Below, piece after piece: positions 33,775 to 44,406 of a stretch of DNA of 64,000 bases. The notes under the pieces were generated by a model, which was not told the origin of the DNA, ran no database searches, and saw only the letters and a list, made by a program, of their open reading frames with translations. This DNA is from Phycisphaerae bacterium (GTDB lineage: Bacteria; Planctomycetota; Phycisphaerae; Tepidisphaerales; Tepidisphaeraceae): positions 1-64,000 of the forward strand of contig JAICIO010000022.1 of the NCBI GenBank assembly GCA_025924315.1, read 5' to 3'. A program made the translations under genes and the position numbers. Every line of letters begins with the position of its first letter. Position 1 is the stretch's first letter.

Positions 33775-34752
33775 TCATTGCCCGGCGGCGCGGAGGTCGG
33801 CGGGGCTGATAACGTGAAACTCGCCGCCGGTCTTTGTCGCGATGTCGCGCAGGGCGGAATTGGTCCCACCATCACCGAGCGCGAACGTGTGGATCTTGAT
33901 CGGCTTGTTCTTGCGAATGTCGAGGACCGTCTTCGCGAAGCTGTCGTCGAGCTGCCAACCTTTGCCCGTCGCCAGCACGATGACGGCCGGATCGGACGCG
34001 ACTGCTCGCGTCATCGCGCTCGTGACGTCGGTTTGACCAAACGCCGAAACTTCATCAAACAGTTTCTCGCACGCCTGGACGTTGTCTTTCGTCGCGTAGG
34101 TCGTTCCGCGAGAGGGATAGGCTTCATCGGAGCCGTTGTTCCAAAAGACAACCTGGAACTTTCGGTCCGATCCGAGCGACTCGAGCGAGCGATAGCACGC
34201 TTCTTTCAGATGCCCGAACAGCTCGCGCGTGCTGTCCCCGCGATCGAGGACGTACACCACGCTCGGAACATCAAGGTCCACACCACAAAACGTCGGTTCA
34301 CGTACGACAGGCGCCGCAGTCGCTTGCGGTTTCGCAGAGGAAGACGCGTTCGTTCCGTGCATGACGTACCAGACTCCGAGCGCGGTGAGCAGAAAGACAA
34401 TCACCCCGCAAATCAGCAGAGAAACCACGAGGCTCTTTTTGGGAGGCGCGACAGACGCTTCAGGCACGGAGCTGGGCGCGTGACGCAACCGTCGCGAGGT
34501 AAGCCCGCTGCTCGCGACGATGTCCGCGAGTTCATCGAGTCCGCTGCTCGGCGCGGGGGGAGCGGGCTCCGCTCGTCCGGGTTGGACGTGAAGGGTTTTC
34601 GTGTTGGCGGTTCCCCCGGACATCGCCTTACGCTTGAGATGCGATCGAACAGTCTGAATCGTCCCGCAATGCTGACACCGGCACGCACCGCCCGCGAAGG
34701 CTTCGTCCATCTCCAGGGTCGCGTGGCATTGGGTGCAGGTGAGAGTGATCAT
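33775..34752 (-). CDS. VWA-like protein with an N-terminal MJ0042-type zinc finger
   Basis: 325 residues. Residues 1-35 carry a four-cysteine finger (LTCTQCHATLEMD, then CRCQHCG) typical of planctomycete membrane proteins. A Pro/Ala-rich linker and a transmembrane helix (about 110-130, VVSLLICGVIVFLLTALGVW) follow. The C-terminal domain has VVYVLDRGDSTRELFG, TDVTSAMTRAVASDPAVIVL and IKIHTFALGDGG, resembling a von Willebrand A domain with an altered MIDAS (DRGDS instead of DxSxS). The domain order suggests a cytoplasmic finger and an external VWA. Role unknown, perhaps protein-protein binding. Confidence 0.78.
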   Translation of the reverse strand: MITLTCTQCHATLEMDEAFAGGACRCQHCGTIQTVRSHLKRKAMSGGTANTKTLHVQPGRAEPAPPAPSSGLDELADIVASSGLTSRRLRHAPSSVPEASVAPPKKSLVVSLLICGVIVFLLTALGVWYVMHGTNASSSAKPQATAAPVVREPTFCGVDLDVPSVVYVLDRGDSTRELFGHLKEACYRSLESLGSDRKFQVVFWNNGSDEAYPSRGTTYATKDNVQACEKLFDEVSAFGQTDVTSAMTRAVASDPAVIVLATGKGWQLDDSFAKTVLDIRKNKPIKIHTFALGDGGTNSALRDIATKTGGEFHVISPADLRAAGQ

Positions 34753-34758
34753 GTCGTA

Positions 34759-34832
34759 AGGATGAATTATGAAGGATGAAGGATGAATTCAGAAACGCCT
34801 AACTTCATCCTTCATAATTCATCTTTCATCCC
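34759..34832. repeat. Heptamer-iterated hairpin D (word GGATGAA)
   Basis: The left arm reads GGATGAA TTATGAA GGATGAA GGATGAA. The right arm reads TTCATCC TTCATAA TTCATCT TTCATCC. About 17 bases separate the arms. It is located between the sppA-like gene and the VWA-like gene, both on the minus strand. Confidence 0.9.
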
Positions 34833-34836
34833 TCGT

Positions 34837-35814
34837 TCAGGGGTTCCAGATGTAATAGAAGCCCTTGCCGAGAAACAAGCCGGTTTCGGGAAGATCTAAA
34901 TGTAATACGTTTGCCTGCGGCACCGGTGCGTTAGTGCTGGCATAGATGGAGCCGTTGTAACCATACGGCCGTTTGTACATCACGACCTTCGCATTTGGCG
35001 CGTTCGCTTTTTGTTTCGCGAGATCGATCGCGTCTTCGAGCAGTCCGACGCGATCGACGAGGCCAATCGCCAGTGCCTGTTCGCCGCTGAATACCCGGCC
35101 GTCAGTCGCAGTCGGAAGATTCTGCTTGCTCAGATTCTTTCGATTTGTCGTTACGACGCTTTTGAATCGCGCGAAATAGTCGTCGACCATTCCCTGCATC
35201 AGCTCGCGCTCTTGTGGCGTGACGGGTTTGAACGGCGAGCCCATGTCCTTGAACTGCCCGCTCTTCACTGCACTGCTGTAGATGCCGATCTTCGCGAGGC
35301 CCTGCGAGGCATCGAAGGTGTTGAAGATCACGCCGATGCTTCCGACGATGCTCGTCGGATTGGCGACGATCTCATCCGAAGCGCAGCTGACGTAATACGC
35401 GCCGCTGGCGCAGACCTCCTGGCACGAAGCGATCACCGGCTTGTGCGTCTTGGCTTTGAAGCGCTGAATCTCCTGATACATGGTGTCGGACGCGGTGACC
35501 GTTCCGCCGGGGGAATTCACGCGCAACACGACGGCCTTCACCGACGGATCCTGCTCGGCCATTTGCAGTTGTTGGGTGAAGAGGCTGACGACGTTCTCGG
35601 TCGGCTGAAGAAATCCGCCGGTGCGGACGTTGGCGAGCATGCCTTCGACTTCGATCATCGCGATCTTCGGCTGCGACCAGCCATGCCCTTCGGCGACATC
35701 GATTTCTTCGAGTCGATTCGTGTTCTGAACCGGCGTGATGAGCAAACTGGGCGCGCCGCAACCGACGAGATTGAACAGCGCGAGCACAACAACTGCGAAA
35801 AGCAAACGACGCAT
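34837..35814 (-). CDS. sppA: Signal peptide peptidase SppA-like serine protease, lipoprotein
   Basis: 325 residues. The signal peptide ends in LVGCG, a lipobox, so the mature protein is probably lipid-anchored; classical SppA is held by a membrane helix instead. The ClpP/crotonase-like peptidase domain has VLRVNSPGGTVTASDTMYQE, VCASGAYYVSCASDEIVANP (the nucleophile Ser of ASGxYY) and SGQFKDMGSP (the catalytic Lys, as in the KSGxxKD motif). The length corresponds to the short bacterial SppA form. It is expected to digest released signal peptides or membrane-protein fragments outside the cytoplasm. Confidence 0.88.
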   Translation of the reverse strand: MRRLLFAVVVLALFNLVGCGAPSLLITPVQNTNRLEEIDVAEGHGWSQPKIAMIEVEGMLANVRTGGFLQPTENVVSLFTQQLQMAEQDPSVKAVVLRVNSPGGTVTASDTMYQEIQRFKAKTHKPVIASCQEVCASGAYYVSCASDEIVANPTSIVGSIGVIFNTFDASQGLAKIGIYSSAVKSGQFKDMGSPFKPVTPQERELMQGMVDDYFARFKSVVTTNRKNLSKQNLPTATDGRVFSGEQALAIGLVDRVGLLEDAIDLAKQKANAPNAKVVMYKRPYGYNGSIYASTNAPVPQANVLHLDLPETGLFLGKGFYYIWNP

Positions 35815-36352: not shown

Positions 36353-36588
36353 CTCGCGAAATTTACAACTGCCCGCGACGTCTGTAGTTAAGCCTTAAAG
36401 CTGCTCTGTGATGTCGGCCGATGGTGCATAAGATCAGCGTTTTTGCGGGTTTCGGGTGACGTCGCGATCTTGATGCAAAAGCCGAGTTTTTATACGAACC
36501 GCCCTACATTATTGCCGTTGTAGATAGGGGCGTTTGGTGGATCGAGCACCGGTTCGCGCGTCTGCCTGAGTTGGAAAGGATTGTCATA

Positions 36589-37485
36589 ATGGAACTTACG
36601 ATTCGCCGCCACGCCTTGGTCGTGGCAATGCTGATCCTCACGATTGGCGTGGCCACCTCGTCTGTGCTCGCGGATTCGTCTGCTTCCGGGCAGACAACCA
36701 TCGGGTACACGCGTCCCTGGAAGAAATCCAAGGTCGCTTTCGCGGGCATCGGCGTGGTCAGCCAGATCCCCGTGAAGGAAGGCGACACGATCACGGAACA
36801 TCAACTGCTGATGAGCCAACTCGACAGCATCGAGCAAAAAGAGCTCGAATTGCTGCAATTACAGGCAGCCTCGACGGCTAAGATCAAGGCCGCCGACTTC
36901 GACCTGTCGGTGAAGACGAGCGCGTTCCACCGAAAAGAGCAGCAATTCAAGCTCAACGCCGCCACCCAACAGGAGCTGGAAGAGGCGGAAGGCAGCATGA
37001 AGGAAGCGGAGCAAAACCTGACGGCTGCGAAAGAAGAGAAGCAGCAGGCTGGCAAGAAAGCGGAAGAGCAGCAGGCGAAGATCGATCAAATGAAGTTGCT
37101 GGCGCCGTTTGCGGGCCAGGTTCAGAAGATCACCGCGAACCTCGGTGAAGCGAGCGGTCCGCAGAGCCAGGACGGCGCGATCACCATCGTCGATAACAGC
37201 ACGCTGTGGATCGACTGCCCCGAACTTCCAACGGCTGAAACGAATCAACTGAAGGTCGGCCAGGAACTTCAGGTGAAGTACGGCCAGGACAAAGATTGGC
37301 AGAAGGCGAAGATCATCTACTTCGCGCCGGAAGCCGACGCGGGCGGCCAGACACGGATGTTCCGCCTGGAGATGACGAATCCGAATAACGTGGCGTCGGG
37401 TCAACAGGTGACCGTGAAGCTGCCGGACAACATCGCCCAGGCGACAGCGCCGCAGCAGGAAGCCAGCGCACAGGCCGGGAAGTAA
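36589..37485 (+). CDS. HlyD-family periplasmic adaptor
   Basis: 298 residues. ATG 36589 was chosen because GGAAAGGA lies about eight bases upstream; an earlier in-frame start at 36571 is weaker. A signal peptide ends near SSVLADS. The first lipoyl-like half has GIGVVSQIPVKEGDTITEHQ. A long helical hairpin rich in Gln, Glu and Lys (about 85-165) is followed by the second half, MKLLAPFAGQVQKITANLGE. This is the membrane-fusion-protein layout of efflux and type I secretion adaptors. It is the first gene of a four-gene cluster and probably bridges the envelope for it. Confidence 0.82.
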   Translation: MELTIRRHALVVAMLILTIGVATSSVLADSSASGQTTIGYTRPWKKSKVAFAGIGVVSQIPVKEGDTITEHQLLMSQLDSIEQKELELLQLQAASTAKIKAADFDLSVKTSAFHRKEQQFKLNAATQQELEEAEGSMKEAEQNLTAAKEEKQQAGKKAEEQQAKIDQMKLLAPFAGQVQKITANLGEASGPQSQDGAITIVDNSTLWIDCPELPTAETNQLKVGQELQVKYGQDKDWQKAKIIYFAPEADAGGQTRMFRLEMTNPNNVASGQQVTVKLPDNIAQATAPQQEASAQAGK

Positions 37486-37496
37486 GTTTGTGATCT

Positions 37497-37553
37497 GTAG
37501 GGTGTGCTTCAGCACACCGGACTTGAATGATGGTGTGCTGAAGCACGCCCTAC
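37497..37553. repeat. GTAGGGTGTGCTTCAGCACA palindrome, copy 2
   Basis: Its arms are GTAGGGTGTGCTTCAGCACA and inverted, with one mismatch. It lies in the 81-base gap between the first and second genes of the HlyD/M50/SecA-like cluster. Confidence 0.9.
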
Positions 37554-37566
37554 GACGGAGAACGCC

Positions 37567-39513
37567 GTGGCAATTGTCGAATCACAATCGGGCGAGCAGG
37601 AACAAAAACAGCAACAGCAACAACAGCAGCAGCAAGGCGGCCCCTTGTCGCGGAACAAGATCGTTCAGCGGCTGCTCGCCGCGGGATCGAACCTGCCCGC
37701 GTTCATCCAGGAACTGCTTACCGCGCAGGCTGTCACGGTCGTCGGCACCGAGGCCGCGGGCTTCCTCATCGAACCGGACCGCGAAAAGGGCGGCGCGCAT
37801 CTCAAGCTGATCGCGCACATCCGTCCTGACGACAGCACTCCGGAAGTTCGCCAGGCCGCCGTGAACGCGTTCGCGGAACTGATCCGCCCGTGCGTCCAGC
37901 AAGGCCGTGACGGCGCCATCGAAATCGACAACCCCGGCGATAACGTCGAACCGCAATATTGCCTAGTCACGCTTCTGCGCAGCGAAGGAAATGTCGTCGC
38001 GGTTTCGGCCGTGATCACCCGTTGCCGCGACGCCGAACGCGCTCAGCAGCGCCTGATGTCGATGGAAATGGTGGCGGGGTATTTCGAAGTCTATTCGCTT
38101 CGTCGCAAGTCGGAACAAACCGGCGCGATCGCTCAAAGCCACCAGCACGTGCTTCAGCTCGCGACCGCGGTTGCGACTGCGGACGGGTTTGAATCCGCCG
38201 CGATGAACCTTTGCAACGAGCTCGCCGCCCGCACCGGCGCGACGCGCGTGAGCATCGGCTGGCTCAAGGGCAAGAACATCAAGCTCAAGGCGATGAGCCA
38301 CACCGAGCAGTTTGACCGCAAGCAGGAACTGTCCGTCGCGATCGAAAAGGCGATGGAAGAGTGTCTCGATCAGGAAGAAATCGTTCAATACGAAGCGGAT
38401 GGCACCGGATCGGAAAACGTCTCGCGCGCGGCGCAGGCGCTGTCGAAGATGCAGGGCGGAACAGGGATCATCTCGCTGCCCTTGCGTCGCAAGGAAGACA
38501 TTCACGGCGTGGTGACGCTCGAGTTTCCGCCGAACTATAAGCTCGCCCCGCAGGCGGCGACCGGCCTTGCCGTCGCGGCCGAATTGCTCGCGCCGCAGCT
38601 GTACGATCGCTACGAAAACGATCGCTACATCATCACCAAGATGGGCATCAGCACCCGCGAAGGTGTGAAGCTCGCGATCGGTCCGAAGCACTGGATCGCG
38701 AAGCTGGTGATCGCTGCTGTCATCGCCGTGATCGTCGCGGTTTGCGTCATCAAGGTGACGTATCACGTGACCGCGCCGTTCGCGTTCGCCGCAACCGATC
38801 CACGAAAGGTGGGCGCGCCGTTCGAAGGCATCATCGCGAAGGTTTACAAAGACGTCAGCTCCAGTCCCGCGGATCGCATCGTCAAGAAGGGCGAGCCGCT
38901 GCTCGAGCTCGAAACGTATCCGCTGAAACTCGAGCTGAACAAGGCCAAGACGCTCGCGGCGCAGAAGCGCGTGGAAGCGAGCGCCCATATGGCGAAAGGT
39001 GAGAACTCCGAAGCGCTGCAGGCGCGCAAGGAAGCCGAAGCGGCCGACGCCGATGCGAGCCTCGCCCAGTGGAAGATCGACAACGCGATCATTCGCGCTC
39101 CGATCGACGGCGAAATCCTTACCGGCAACAACAAGGAAAAGATCCTTGCCCCGGTGAAGCAGGGCGAAGAGCTCTACACCGTCGCCGATCGCAGCCAGCT
39201 TCGCGCCGAACTCTCGGTTCCCGAGCGCGACGTGCAGGAGCTTGTCGAAGGGCAGAAGGGCCAGCTCACCAGCAATTCGGATCCCGGCCGCGAATTCCCG
39301 TTCACGGTCGATACGATCTTCCCGGAAGCCGAATCGAAGGAAGGCGCCAACTTCTTCAAGGTCTACGCCAACATCGACAGCCCGCTGAGCCCCGAGTGGC
39401 GCCCCGGTCTGCAAGGCGAAGCGAACGTGAACATCGAAAAGCGCCGCATCGTCTGGATCTGGACCCACAAGTTTACCGAATGGGTCGAGCTCGAGATGTG
39501 GAAGCTGTTCTAA
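37567..39513 (+). CDS. GAF-domain membrane protein with HlyD-like extracytoplasmic part
   Basis: 648 residues, GTG start. A glutamine run (residues 14-23) opens the protein. Residues about 30-175 are an uncharacterised domain. A GAF-like domain spans about 195-355, with LATAVATADGFESAAMNLCN and GATRVSIGWLKGKNI. A transmembrane helix follows at about 376-400 (KLVIAAVIAVIVAVCVIKVT). Beyond it is a HlyD/biotinyl-lipoyl region, with GAPFEGIIAKVYKDV, a coiled-coil hairpin to about 500, and IRAPIDGEILTG. The topology puts GAF inside and the adaptor outside. It may sense a cytoplasmic signal and couple it to the adaptor. It is second in the cluster. Confidence 0.8.
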   Translation: MAIVESQSGEQEQKQQQQQQQQQGGPLSRNKIVQRLLAAGSNLPAFIQELLTAQAVTVVGTEAAGFLIEPDREKGGAHLKLIAHIRPDDSTPEVRQAAVNAFAELIRPCVQQGRDGAIEIDNPGDNVEPQYCLVTLLRSEGNVVAVSAVITRCRDAERAQQRLMSMEMVAGYFEVYSLRRKSEQTGAIAQSHQHVLQLATAVATADGFESAAMNLCNELAARTGATRVSIGWLKGKNIKLKAMSHTEQFDRKQELSVAIEKAMEECLDQEEIVQYEADGTGSENVSRAAQALSKMQGGTGIISLPLRRKEDIHGVVTLEFPPNYKLAPQAATGLAVAAELLAPQLYDRYENDRYIITKMGISTREGVKLAIGPKHWIAKLVIAAVIAVIVAVCVIKVTYHVTAPFAFAATDPRKVGAPFEGIIAKVYKDVSSSPADRIVKKGEPLLELETYPLKLELNKAKTLAAQKRVEASAHMAKGENSEALQARKEAEAADADASLAQWKIDNAIIRAPIDGEILTGNNKEKILAPVKQGEELYTVADRSQLRAELSVPERDVQELVEGQKGQLTSNSDPGREFPFTVDTIFPEAESKEGANFFKVYANIDSPLSPEWRPGLQGEANVNIEKRRIVWIWTHKFTEWVELEMWKLF

Positions 39514-39520
39514 TTTGCAT

Positions 39521-39606
39521 GTTGCGTGTGGCGGGTTGCTCGTTGAAGTGATTCGTCGCACGCAGTTCCCAACAAGCAACACGCAACAAGCAACAAGCAG
39601 TCAGCA
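39521..39606. repeat. Heptamer-iterated hairpin E (word ACAAGCA)
   Basis: The left arm contains GTTGCGT GTGGCGG GTTGCTC GTTGAAG. The right arm has ACAAGCA ACACGCA ACAAGCA ACAAGCA. It lies between the second and third genes of the export-like cluster and reaches the M50 start codon. Confidence 0.85.
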
Positions 39607-41814
39607 ATGCTTCAACTTCGCCCAACATTTTCTGAATCGTGGTATCGCGTTGTGAACCTGCGGCCGAAGCTCCGCGGGACGGCGCAGATTTCTCGCCAGT
39701 ACTACCGCGGCGATCGCTGGTATGTCGTGCGCGACCCCGCCGGCAATCAGTTCCACCGCGTATCCGATGCGGCGTATCGATTCATCGGCTTGCTCGATGG
39801 TCGTCGGACCGTCGGTGAAGCGTGGGATCTGGTTGGCGGACAGCTCGCCGACGACGCACCGACGCAACCGGAAGTCATCCAGCTCCTTTCGCAGCTTTAC
39901 GCCGCGAACGTGATCGAGACGGATGTTCCGCCGGACGCGCTGGTGCTGTTGCGGCGGCATAAGCAGCTTCAAAAGCGGCAGATGCAAGGCCGCTTGATGA
40001 ACGTGCTGTTCCCGCGCATCCCACTTTGGGATTGCGACAACTTCGTGAAGCGCTGGCTGCCGCTGGTTCGGCCGTTCCTCAGCAAGGTCGGGGCGATCGC
40101 ATGGCTGGTCGTCGTGGTTGGCGCGATCGCGATGCTCGTGCCGGATTGGGCGCGACTGAAAGAGGCGGCCGCTTACACCGTCAACATCAAAGCGAACCCG
40201 ATCAACGCGTTCTACCTCTACACCGTGTTCGTGCTGATCAAATTCATTCACGAGCTCGGGCACGCATTCAGCTGTCGTCGCTTCGGCGGCGAAGTGCACG
40301 AGATGGGCATCATGTTCCTGGTGTTCATCCCCACGCCGTACGTGGACGCGAGCACCGCGTGGGCATTCCCCAGCCGCTGGGCACGCATGTTCGTCGGCGC
40401 GGGTGGAATGATCATCGAGCTGTTCGTCGCATCGCTGTGCGCGATCTTCTGGCACTTCGCGACCCCTGGTTCCGTGCCGAGCATGCTCGCGTACAACGCG
40501 ATGCTGATCGCCTCGGTCAGCACGATCATCTTTAACGCAAACCCACTGCTGCGCTACGACGGCTATTACATCCTGTCGGACTTCCTCGAGATTCCGAACC
40601 TGCAGCAGAAGAGCAAGGAATATGCGCTCGGCCTGATCACGCGGCACATTTTCCGCGTGAAAGCGACGCAGCCGCTTCCGCCGCCTCTGCAGCGCGCGTG
40701 GCTTCTCGTCTATGCGATTCTTTCGTCGATCTATCGCGTCTTTGTCGGCATCGCGATCGTGCTCATGGTGACGTGGACGATCCCGGTCATCGGCATCTTG
40801 ATGGCGATCGGCGGCGTGGTGACGTGGGGCATCGTGCCGATCGTGAAGGTGTTCAAGTATCTCACGATCGATCCGGAGCTGCATCGCAAGCGGCCCCGCG
40901 CGATCGCGTTTACGCTCGCGGTGATGGCGGCGATTGTGCTGCTCGTGGGTGTAATCAAGTTCCCGATGCGCCTGGATACCGAAGGCGCGGTCGAGCCGGG
41001 CAATCGCGAGATCCTGCACGCGGAGACTTCCGGTTTCGTGAAGCAGGTCGTCGCGCACAGCGGCGACAAGCTGAAGAAGGGCGATCCGATCCTCGTGTGC
41101 GAAAACGTCGAGCTCGATTCGCAGATCGCACAGGCGCAGGCGAAAGTACAGGCCGCCGAGATCAAGGTCAGCCAGTCGCGCGTGACCAATCAGGCGCTGC
41201 GTCAGATCGATCAGGAAGCCCTGCAAAACGAACGCGAGCATCTGCAGGAGTTGCAACGTGAAAAGAACGCGCTCACGCTTCGCGCGCCGATCGACGGCGA
41301 GCTGATCGCTCCCGATTTCGACAAGGATCAGGTGCTCGGCCGCTTCTATCAGAAGGGCGAAGAGATCTGCCGTGTTGCCGATCTTTCGCAGCTGCTCGTT
41401 CGCGCGGTTCTCGAACAGCGCGATGCGACGCTCGCGGTTGAACATCCGCAGCCCAAGCCCGGACCTGACCCGGAGAAGTGGCCGACCGAAGTGCGCTTGA
41501 TCGGCAAGCTCGATCACATCATGCACGCGGACCATTACGAAGTGATCAACGCGGCACAGAGCGAGCTGCCAGATCCGCTGCTCAGCACGCAGGGCGGCGG
41601 CGATCAACAGATCGATCCGCGCGATCCGAAAGGCAAGAAGGCGGTCGAGAAGGAATTCGAGATGCGCATTCTGCTGGACAATCCGTACTCGACATACTTG
41701 CCCGGCCAGCGCGCGTACGTTCGCGTGACGCTGGACAAAGTCCCGCTCGGCGAGCAGTGGCTCCGCCGCTTCCGCCAGCTCGTGCGCAGTCGAAGCAATA
41801 GCAAGTGGCTCTAA
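39607..41814 (+). CDS. Site-2 protease (M50)-HlyD fusion with PqqD-like N-terminus
   Basis: 735 residues. Residues 1-120 resemble a PqqD-type peptide-binding domain (WYVVRDPAGNQFHRVSDAAY, then FIGLLDGRRTVGEAWDLVGG). Membrane helices follow, with the M50 zinc motif HELGHAF at 215-221 and the second motif NPLLRYDGYY near 312. From about 430 the last helix leads to a HlyD-like barrel and coiled coil (NREILHAETSGFVKQVVAHS and LRAPIDGELIAPDF). The combined parts suggest an intramembrane protease attached to an export adaptor, which could process or gate a peptide or protein substrate. Third gene of the cluster. Confidence 0.85.
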   Translation: MLQLRPTFSESWYRVVNLRPKLRGTAQISRQYYRGDRWYVVRDPAGNQFHRVSDAAYRFIGLLDGRRTVGEAWDLVGGQLADDAPTQPEVIQLLSQLYAANVIETDVPPDALVLLRRHKQLQKRQMQGRLMNVLFPRIPLWDCDNFVKRWLPLVRPFLSKVGAIAWLVVVVGAIAMLVPDWARLKEAAAYTVNIKANPINAFYLYTVFVLIKFIHELGHAFSCRRFGGEVHEMGIMFLVFIPTPYVDASTAWAFPSRWARMFVGAGGMIIELFVASLCAIFWHFATPGSVPSMLAYNAMLIASVSTIIFNANPLLRYDGYYILSDFLEIPNLQQKSKEYALGLITRHIFRVKATQPLPPPLQRAWLLVYAILSSIYRVFVGIAIVLMVTWTIPVIGILMAIGGVVTWGIVPIVKVFKYLTIDPELHRKRPRAIAFTLAVMAAIVLLVGVIKFPMRLDTEGAVEPGNREILHAETSGFVKQVVAHSGDKLKKGDPILVCENVELDSQIAQAQAKVQAAEIKVSQSRVTNQALRQIDQEALQNEREHLQELQREKNALTLRAPIDGELIAPDFDKDQVLGRFYQKGEEICRVADLSQLLVRAVLEQRDATLAVEHPQPKPGPDPEKWPTEVRLIGKLDHIMHADHYEVINAAQSELPDPLLSTQGGGDQQIDPRDPKGKKAVEKEFEMRILLDNPYSTYLPGQRAYVRVTLDKVPLGEQWLRRFRQLVRSRSNSKWL

Positions 41815-41825
41815 TTCCAACCGCC

Positions 41826-41851
41826 GGCAGTGGCACTTAAGTGCCGCTGCC
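41826..41851. repeat. GGCAGTGGCACTTAAGTGCC palindrome, copy 1
   Basis: A 26-base near-perfect palindrome in the 49-base gap between the M50-HlyD gene and the SecA-like gene. Other copies are at 52562, 53949 and 57693. Confidence 0.88.
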
Positions 41852-41863
41852 AGTAATGCAACG

Positions 41864-43801
41864 ATGTCAGACCTCGCAACCAACGAACTCTGGTCGATCT
41901 TCGACGCTCGGCGCGTGAAAGCGCCGGAGCTGCGCGGACTTGATCTGGCGATGAACGGCTTTGTCGGGTTCTACAAGAACCGCAAGCCGGTGCTCCCGCG
42001 GCTCAAGGCGGCGGCGGAGCGCATTGAAAAGCTCGAGCCGGAAATTCACGCGCTGGGCTCGACGCGGTTCCAGGAAGAAGTCGCGGAAGTTCGCAATCTC
42101 GCGCGCCTCAAGAAGCTCGAAGGACCCGCGCTCGATCGCGGAATGGCGATCGTTCGCGAGGCCGCTTGGCGCGCCGTGGGCAAACGGCCGTTCCCCGTGC
42201 AGCTGATGGGCGCGCTCGCGATGTGCGAAGGCTTGATTGCGGAGATGGCAACCGGCGAAGGGAAAACACTCACCGCCTCGCTCGCGGCGTCGATCTGGGC
42301 CTGGAGCGGAAAGCCGGTTCACATCATCACGGTGAACGATTACCTCGTGGCCCGCGACGCCGAGCTGATGGGGCCGGTGTATCGCATGCTCGGCCTCGAG
42401 GTCGGACACATCGTTCACGAGACGACACCCAACGATCGCGTCGGCCAATATCGCCGCAACGTGATCTACTGCACGAGCAAAGAGCTCGTCGCCGACTTTT
42501 TGCGTGATCAGATTCAGCTCGGCACGCTCCGCACGAGTGTGCAGACGGCCGTCGGAATGCTCTCACAGTCGCAGGCCCGCAACGCGCTGATGATCCCGGG
42601 ACTGTTCCGCGTGATCGTCGACGAAGCGGACAGCTTGCTGATCGACGAAGCAGTGACCCCGCTGATCATCTCGAATTCGCCGGACGATGAAGCAAATTCG
42701 TCGCTGTATCGCGCCGCGTATGAGCTGGCGAAAGTCATGGACAAGGATCGCGATTTCACGATCGACTGGACGATCCGCAACGTCGATCTCACGCCGCGCG
42801 GTCAGGCGCGCATTGACGAGCTCGCCGAGGGCAACGGCTTCTGGAAGGGCAAGCGCCGCCGCGAAGAGCTCGTGACGCAGGCGCTCGTGTCGCTCCACTG
42901 CTACATTCGCGACGAGCAGTACCTCATCACCGAAGACGGCAAGGTGCAGATCATCGACGAATTCACCGGCCGCGTGATGGCGGACCGTTCGTGGCGACAT
43001 GGATTGCACCAGGCGATCGAGGTGAAAGAAGGCGTGCCCGTTACGGCCGACAAGGAAAACCTCGCTCGCCTCAGCTTCCAGCGCTTCTTCCGCCAGTATC
43101 CGATCATGGGCGGAATGACCGGCACCGCGTGGGAATCCGCCGGCGAAATGTGGCAAATCTATCAGCGGCCAATCGTGCGCATCCCGACGAACAAGCCGTG
43201 CATCCGCAAGCATCTGCCGGTTCGCTTCTTCGACACAATGGACCAGAAGTTCGAGGCCGTCGTGCAGCGCGTGTGTGAGCTGAACGATCAGGGCGCGCCG
43301 GTGCTGATCGGCACGCGGTCGGTGCTCGCCTCGCTCGAAGTCTCCAAGCGCCTCGACGCCGCCAAACGCGCGCACCGCGTGCTCAATGCGACGCAGACGA
43401 AAGTCGAGGCCGACATCATCGCGATGGCCGGTCACCGTGGGCAAATCACTGTCGCCACGAACATGGCCGGCCGTGGAACGGACATCATCCTTTCGCGCGG
43501 CGTCGCAGACATCGGCGGGCTAAACGTGATCTCCACCGAACCGCACGGCAGCGGAAGAGTCGACCGCCAGCTCTTCGGCCGCGCCGCTCGCCAAGGCGAT
43601 CCCGGCAGCGCTCAGATGTTCGCGTGCGCCGAGGACGACCTCTTCATCCGCCACACCAAAAACATCCGCAAAGCCTGGCGGGCCATCGGCGCGAGCAACC
43701 TCATCCGAATCGCCCAGGCGCGAGCGGAACGCCTGGCGAGATTCAATCGAAAACAAGTTCTCAAAAACGACGACTGGATGGACCAGGCGGTGCCGTTCTG
43801 A
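41864..43801 (+). CDS. SecA-like preprotein translocase ATPase (short paralogue)
   Basis: 645 residues; canonical SecA is about 850-950. The motor is complete: Walker A TGEGKT (about 129-134), Walker B IVDEADSLLIDEA, MTGTA, NMAGRGTDIIL and FGRAARQGDPGSAQ, which is the SecA arginine-finger region. The preprotein-binding segment is present but short (SNSPDDEANSSL). The C-terminus stops about 60 residues after the RQGDPG motif, so the helical-wing domain and the zinc-binding tail that binds SecB/lipids are absent. It is probably an accessory SecA for the adjacent HlyD/M50 proteins rather than the housekeeping enzyme. Last of four co-directional genes. Confidence 0.9.
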   Translation: MSDLATNELWSIFDARRVKAPELRGLDLAMNGFVGFYKNRKPVLPRLKAAAERIEKLEPEIHALGSTRFQEEVAEVRNLARLKKLEGPALDRGMAIVREAAWRAVGKRPFPVQLMGALAMCEGLIAEMATGEGKTLTASLAASIWAWSGKPVHIITVNDYLVARDAELMGPVYRMLGLEVGHIVHETTPNDRVGQYRRNVIYCTSKELVADFLRDQIQLGTLRTSVQTAVGMLSQSQARNALMIPGLFRVIVDEADSLLIDEAVTPLIISNSPDDEANSSLYRAAYELAKVMDKDRDFTIDWTIRNVDLTPRGQARIDELAEGNGFWKGKRRREELVTQALVSLHCYIRDEQYLITEDGKVQIIDEFTGRVMADRSWRHGLHQAIEVKEGVPVTADKENLARLSFQRFFRQYPIMGGMTGTAWESAGEMWQIYQRPIVRIPTNKPCIRKHLPVRFFDTMDQKFEAVVQRVCELNDQGAPVLIGTRSVLASLEVSKRLDAAKRAHRVLNATQTKVEADIIAMAGHRGQITVATNMAGRGTDIILSRGVADIGGLNVISTEPHGSGRVDRQLFGRAARQGDPGSAQMFACAEDDLFIRHTKNIRKAWRAIGASNLIRIAQARAERLARFNRKQVLKNDDWMDQAVPF

Positions 43802-43818: not shown

Positions 43819-44406
43819 ATGGCGTTATCCGCGACGTCAATCTCACTCGATCGGATGGTGTCGGCCGTGGAAAAAGTACGGCAACGATTACTTCGGGCCG
43901 TCGGTGCGCTTAACGCGGCCGGCATCCAATACGCCGTTGCAGGGGGAAATGCAGTCGCTGCGTGGGTGTCGTCTGTCGACGAGTCGGCGGTCCGAAACAC
44001 GCAAGACGTGGACATCCTGATCCGCCGTGAGGATTTGTCCGCGGTTCAAAAAGCGCTCCAAGCCGCCGGCTTCGTCTATCGACACACCGCCGGCCTTGAT
44101 GTTTTCCTCGATGGCCCAAACGCCAAGCCGCGCGAAGGAATCCACATCGTCTTCGCGAAAGAGAAAGTTCGCCAGCATGAGCCCATCGCCAATCCCGATG
44201 TGACGGAAGCACAGAATACGGGAAGCTTTTCCGTTCTCAGTCTCGAGGCGCTCGTCCGAATCAAGCTCACCGCGTTTCGCGATAAGGATCGGACCCATCT
44301 GCGGGACCTCATCGACGTTGGTCTGATCGACGACTCATGGCCAGCGAAATTCCTGCCTGAACTGGGCGATCGTTTGCGCGTGTTGCTCGAAAATCCAGAA
44401 GGTTGA
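43819..44406 (+). CDS. Nucleotidyltransferase-fold protein
   Basis: 195 residues. GAGGTG lies before ATG 43819. The NTase-like core is YAVAGGNAVAAWVSSVDESA followed by NTQDVDILIRREDL, corresponding to the GG...(D/E)xD metal motif. VLSLEALVRIKLTAFRDKDR and HLRDLIDVGLID match the AbiEii/DUF6036-like helical end, which carries further conserved residues. Such proteins may be toxins that transfer nucleotides to tRNA or other targets; no cognate antitoxin was found next to it. It starts 18 bases after the SecA-like stop, so it may be co-transcribed by position only. Confidence 0.7.
   Translation: MALSATSISLDRMVSAVEKVRQRLLRAVGALNAAGIQYAVAGGNAVAAWVSSVDESAVRNTQDVDILIRREDLSAVQKALQAAGFVYRHTAGLDVFLDGPNAKPREGIHIVFAKEKVRQHEPIANPDVTEAQNTGSFSVLSLEALVRIKLTAFRDKDRTHLRDLIDVGLIDDSWPAKFLPELGDRLRVLLENPEG

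Follow-up and report, generated by a model that had tools for sequence, protein, structure and literature searches.

Our analysis suggests that a four-gene module, present in a 64,000-nt stretch of DNA from a Phycisphaerae bacterium (hereafter the window), moves out of the cell two kinds of protein that start with the short LEPR-XLL motif, giant surface proteins and secreted enzymes. The four proteins, designated A to D, probably form a dedicated HlyD(-TolC) exporter that has no ABC transporter and is driven by a SecA-like ATPase, with LEPR-XLL as its N-terminal export signal (transport itself we infer). We also lean, with less confidence, towards the broader proposal of a separate secretion route, shared by Planctomycetota, Verrucomicrobiota and Proteobacteria, built from HlyD adaptors (with TolC), an M50 membrane protein and a pared-down SecA-like motor. 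The exported proteins, as long as about 14,000 residues, would bear a non-hydrophobic N-terminal LEPR-XLL signal. A module without a known job since 2015 and a motif without a transporter are thereby joined. If true, this would explain the exit of some of the largest bacterial proteins, including ones without a Sec signal; it would also mean that standard signal-peptide predictors miss many secreted planctomycete enzymes, and that a SecA-type motor can act outside the SecYEG pathway.

The cluster and its four proteins

Genes A to D occupy positions 36589-43801 of the window as four co-directional ORFs that are 49-93 nt apart and score higher for codon bias than anything else nearby (Table 1). 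ORFs and domain scans agree with the original prediction of a HlyD, a GAF-TM-HlyD, a PqqD-M50-HlyD and a short SecA-like gene in a row and, as was also predicted, no ABC protein was found among the cluster genes in the domain scan. The cluster has no TolC gene. Two neighbourhood observations can be added. A divergent pair encoding an SppA-type signal peptide peptidase and a VWA protein (33775-35814, minus strand) adjoins the cluster and is kept together in about 10 same-family loci, while a nucleotidyltransferase-like gene (NTP_transf_5 / AbiEii; 43819-44406, plus strand) begins 17 nt after D and is not kept beside D in the relatives examined.

Table 1. Features of the cluster and its upstream neighbour, in window coordinates.
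Feature	Coordinates	Strand	Description or basis
Zincin_1 metallopeptidase small gene, 126 aa	35869..36249	+	directly upstream of A; kept in 11 loci including the window
Gene A	36589..37485	+	HlyD/RND-MFP type periplasmic adaptor, Sec-type N-terminus
Gene B	37567..39513	+	GAF-region N-half, one TM segment, MacA-like HlyD C-half
Second GAF-like alpha/beta domain, B residues 208-320	38188..38526	+	model secondary structure and homologues
HlyD adaptor part, B residues 409-614	38791..39408	+	domain scan, Foldseek
Gene C	39607..41814	+	PqqD-like N-terminus, M50 intramembrane metalloprotease, C-terminal HlyD adaptor
PqqD-like domain, C residues 39-103	39721..39915	+	weak, below Pfam cut-off
HELGH, C residues 215-219	40249..40263	+	H215, E216, H219 invariant in 24 homologues
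D318 of C	40558-40560	+	invariant in 24 C homologues
Gene D	41864..43801	+	short SecA-like ATPase: NBD1, preprotein cross-linking domain, NBD2
Walker A TGEGKTL, D residues 130-136	42251..42271	+	T130-T135 invariant in 20 homologues
DEAD-box motif of D	42620..42631	+	D253, E254, D256 invariant in 20 homologues
SecA preprotein cross-linking domain, D residues 278-386	42695..43021	+	domain scan

Domain scanning of A, which starts at the ATG at 36589 or possibly at a TTG at 36571, returned HlyD_D23 (6.5e-13) and HlyD_3 (1e-10), and B likewise matched HlyD_3 (2.8e-15). The GAF signal is below threshold in the window's own B, and a Pfam GAF match is present in 22/25 B homologues. Structure models of B (pLDDT 87) and C (pLDDT 86) are confident. 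Foldseek searches with the model of B found a resemblance of its C-half to MacA; among the matches listed only the adaptor half was matched, giving no independent support for GAF, and the same was true of C, where only the adaptor half was matched among the matches listed and M50 received no independent support.

C matched M50 (7e-8) and HlyD_D23 (6e-8), with a weak PqqD match (0.0013) under the curated cut-off. Residues 39-400 also matched the daptide protease model NF041824 (E 7e-45), and C matched the LiaK/YydH model (3e-13), as would be expected if C were akin to the HExxH proteases of daptides and epipeptides, which bind the leader through a PqqD-type domain, and the cluster served the maturation and export of a RiPP-like peptide. 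At the same time, the NF041824 score of 153.7 bits falls far short of the 300 set as curated cut-off, a scan of ten window genes around the cluster showed no modification enzyme, and the recurrent neighbours in relatives are giant proteins (see below), so that we give peptide maturation hardly any probability.

D is a SecA-like ATPase by its matches to SecA_DEAD (4e-89), P-loop_SecA (8e-46) and SecA_PP_bind (2e-25), and a second, full-size SecA is encoded elsewhere in the genome (C36, a 1290-codon frame). D is about 645 aa long, against a range of ~640-750 aa in nearly all relatives, and retains little of the region that holds the scaffold, the wing and the two-helix finger, alignments with known SecA proteins ending shortly past NBD2. 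Its arginine-rich motif is invariant in the same 20 homologues as the Walker A and DEAD-box motifs. Judging from the intact ATPase and HExxH motifs, both D and C look active.

The C-terminal scaffold and wing region of SecA contacts SecYEG and drives the chain. Most of this region is missing from D, no SecY gene lies in the cluster (and a scan of ten genes, those of the cluster and its surroundings, gave no SecY2), and HlyD genes accompany D. For these reasons we find it very improbable that D acts as an accessory SecA2, driving clients through ordinary SecYEG while the HlyD proteins are otherwise employed, even though D is a SecA paralogue whose motor motifs and preprotein domain are intact and whose clade is placed next to actinobacterial SecA2 in the tree of Kamneva et al. 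(PMC4452313).

That tree belongs to an earlier description of the module itself. Kamneva, Poudel and Ward (2015; PMC4452313) reported a "secondary SecA_DEAD" protein without SecA_SW, a name that recurs in just one other paper of the open-access literature searched, with M50, HlyD, GAF-HlyD and sometimes OEP proteins as neighbours. They proposed that the SecA protein replaces the ABC ATPase and that M50 is the membrane part, suggested a regulatory role for the GAF protein, gave the biological role as unknown and named no substrate or export signal. The window shows the same features, namely a D without SecA_SW in a genome that also has a canonical SecA, and M50-HlyD, GAF-HlyD and HlyD neighbours; by domain content and neighbourhood, then, the cluster is a further case of this module. 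The original prediction of a possible undescribed export system is therefore a rediscovery, since both the module and the motor idea had been published, and "undescribed" has to be dropped; the idea of a single machine is strongly supported, and the large neighbouring protein that was proposed as a check is found in relatives outside the window's family.

Conservation of the module

Every genome sampled from the window's family has a C homologue, and across ~25 of them A, B, C and D follow one another in this order on every contig long enough to show it, the exceptions being one locus in which A was not called (L053) and two in which C is split (L042 and L071). Such constancy is far beyond chance. 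B-C-D, often with A, recurs in many other families of the class and, beyond it, in Planctomycetota, Verrucomicrobiota, Omnitrophota, Nitrospirota, Desulfobacterota and Proteobacteria. A scan of named genomes yielded 534 relatives, and the best 80 of the 534, used for neighbour counts, come from Planctomycetota, Verrucomicrobiota, Omnitrophota, Elusimicrobiota, Nitrospirota, Desulfobacterota, Proteobacteria and others. Of the 45 among the best 80 with at least 5 kb of flank on both sides, all have B, 43 have D and 39 have A. Distances between homologues of B, of C and of D are correlated with one another (Mantel r 0.87-0.94), which, as shared descent contributes, is supporting evidence only. 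The gene order found across families and phyla, together with this correlated divergence, strongly supports the prediction that the four genes would recur together as parts of one machine.

Further genes recur beside the operon. An OEP/TolC gene was found by profile in 18/80 loci of the best 80 relatives and confirmed with Pfam in 5/5 loci tested. DUF3467 adjoins the operon in 22/80 loci of the same set, and in many phyla it separates B from the giant gene, or from A (for example L095:7713-8030, L076:1492-1872 and L112:7670-8002); it is possibly a chaperone of the client. We rejected it as an essential fifth part: it also occurs in four genomes that lack C (G026, G029, G055 and G056) and is therefore not specific to the module. 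SapC, known from Campylobacter S-layer export clusters, lies beside the operon in 11/80 loci of the best 80. SapC family genes were also observed between a giant LEPR gene and B (L096:6953-7771, L114:7219-8040 and L130:7233-8081), the first of them matching PF07277 at 1.5e-71. Separately, two loci carry B-C pairs with a divergent C and no SecA-like D (L068:6716-10802 and L070:7294-11447).

LEPR-XLL proteins as candidate clients

It had been noted that no substrate gene is obvious in the window, and rightly so: the likely substrates are encoded elsewhere in this genome. In relatives outside the window's family, the conserved large secreted protein that might be expected near such a machine is found. 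Beyond the window's class, an ORF that extends past the end of the 10-kb flank often precedes the operon, and some giant neighbours begin with the LEPR-XLL motif (NCBIfam NF012209, a model of only 24 positions with a 17-bit cut-off). Matching of strand and end coordinate identifies the giant ORF immediately upstream as the LEPR-XLL frame itself in 13 named relatives, most of them Proteobacteria, with lengths of 4,601-14,414 codons; in two of the 13, L096 and L141, C and LEPR share a contig. Elsewhere the LEPR gene adjoins the operon on its other side (L118, L139 and L143), is close by (L094) or, in one member of the window's family (L043), comes right after D, the LEPR genes of that family being mostly away from the operon. 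LEPR-XLL exceeds its cut-off in 26/29 module-bearing genomes, mostly in one or two genes, with frames of up to 14,414 codons.

One gammaproteobacterial genome has two giant LEPR-XLL frames (13,848 and 3,186 codons) in tandem just upstream of C (G378:C1:429854-484400). Not every large ORF beside the class-level loci is a substrate, several of them looking metabolic or antisense.

The motif also follows the module from genome to genome. Across 61 relatives, and among the matches listed, LEPR-XLL (counted at a best E of <=0.0123) was found in 42/47 genomes with C vs 0/14 without (Fisher p 5e-10); by total count, 43 genomes are over the family cut-off. Leaving out the window's family gives 16/21 vs 0/14 (p 5e-6), again among the matches listed. 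Within four families (f5, f7, f10 and f11) the module comes and goes, and LEPR-XLL follows. At the level of the phylum (246 genomes), C is present in 28/29 LEPR-positive genomes (p 6e-20), and in gammaproteobacteria LEPR-XLL occurs in 14/16 genomes with a D-associated C vs 6/213 others (p 5e-16), where D-associated and divergent C were split by bit score at a line drawn after the data were seen. LEPR-XLL is present with the D-associated module and rare elsewhere, apart from the uninformative alphaproteobacteria, in which this type occurs in 1 genome only, too rare for comparison. Fisher tests ignore phylogeny, and the switches within families and the physical adjacency are better evidence than these p values. 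Genome size was rejected as the cause of the link, as class genomes outside the window's family have similar sizes with and without C.

The association has exceptions. A few genomes with C have no LEPR matches, and four are LEPR-positive without a detected C (G245, G401, G445 and G538). Two genomes with a divergent C lack both D and LEPR-XLL (G049 and G058), and some others with a divergent, D-less C paralogue do have LEPR-XLL genes, sometimes adjacent to it (G279, G253, G191 and G236), suggesting that D is perhaps dispensable for some clients.

The consensus of 62 LEPR N-termini is [FL]E-x-LEPR-[VIL]-LLS-[AG]-D. None of the 62 has a hydrophobic core of the Sec type, defined as a 12-residue hydropathy mean of at least 2.0, a value that all 18 A proteins reach; by this measure the segment does not qualify as a Sec signal. 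The window's own genome encodes at least 12 LEPR proteins outside the window. In 11 of the 12 examined the motif starts in the first ~45 residues, and in the other one it lies close to a later ATG. Domains in the 10 that were scanned are malectin, heparinase II/III (in two), PKD, FG-GAP with Ig, M12B reprolysin, Ig (in two, one with a GSDH-like match), an SBBP propeller, and metallophosphatase with fn3. Such domain types are usually extracellular. We found no link of LEPR-XLL to HlyD or SecA, and no transporter for it, in the open-access literature, where one paper names the motif in passing, and as far as that literature goes the link with the module appears to be new.

An association of this kind could also be indirect, with LEPR-XLL proteins exported otherwise and the module processing, anchoring or monitoring them afterwards by means of a site-2 type M50 protease and a GAF sensor. 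The intact M50 site, the GAF domain in B homologues and the regulatory role suggested for it (PMC4452313) all fit such an arrangement. On the other hand, the LEPR proteins lack a Sec core and would therefore need a different route even then, TolC genes adjoin several of the operons, and a SecA-type ATPase with a preprotein domain would have no role in pure processing. We thus consider an indirect association unlikely, and prefer direct export by the module.

A proposed export route and its relation to known systems

In the export route that we propose, LEPR-XLL would serve as the export signal in place of a Sec signal peptide, and would be read by the PqqD-like part of C or by D. D would stand in for the ABC ATPase that type I systems use, binding clients and powering their transport. 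B and C may form an inner-membrane and periplasmic complex joined to A and to a TolC-type outer channel; the M50 site of C may trim the signal or a client, and the GAF domain in B might sense a ligand and gate the complex. The clients would be one giant protein encoded beside the operon in many Proteobacteria, and many scattered enzymes and adhesin-like proteins in the window's genome.

Type I secretion (HlyB-HlyD-TolC; LapBCE, SapDEF) shares with this module its HlyD adaptors, large adhesin-like candidate clients and, beside some operons, a SapC gene; a TolC-type channel gene, absent from the window's cluster, lies beside the operon in relatives. In contrast to type I systems, the cluster is without an ABC exporter and has in addition a SecA-like motor and an M50 protein, and the signal, C-terminal in type I secretion, is proposed to be the N-terminal LEPR-XLL. 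The accessory Sec system (SecA2/SecY2) likewise pairs a second SecA paralogue with a dedicated client, but here the paralogue is cut down to exclude most of the scaffold, wing and two-helix finger, and HlyD proteins, not SecY2, are found with it.

The daptide and epipeptide proteases (NF041824, YydH/LiaK) resemble C in combining an intramembrane HExxH protease with a PqqD-like N-terminus; C differs in scoring far under the model's cut-off, in carrying a C-terminal HlyD adaptor and in having no RiPP modification genes beside it. LEPR-XLL proteins (NF012209), previously a named domain only, with no transporter assigned in the literature searched, agree with the candidate clients in placing a short N-terminal motif on giant surface proteins. 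The Kamneva module has the same four protein types, loss of SecA_SW, phyla and suggestion of SecA for energy and M50 for the membrane part; to it we add the LEPR-XLL link, the giant neighbours and the DUF3467 and SapC neighbours.
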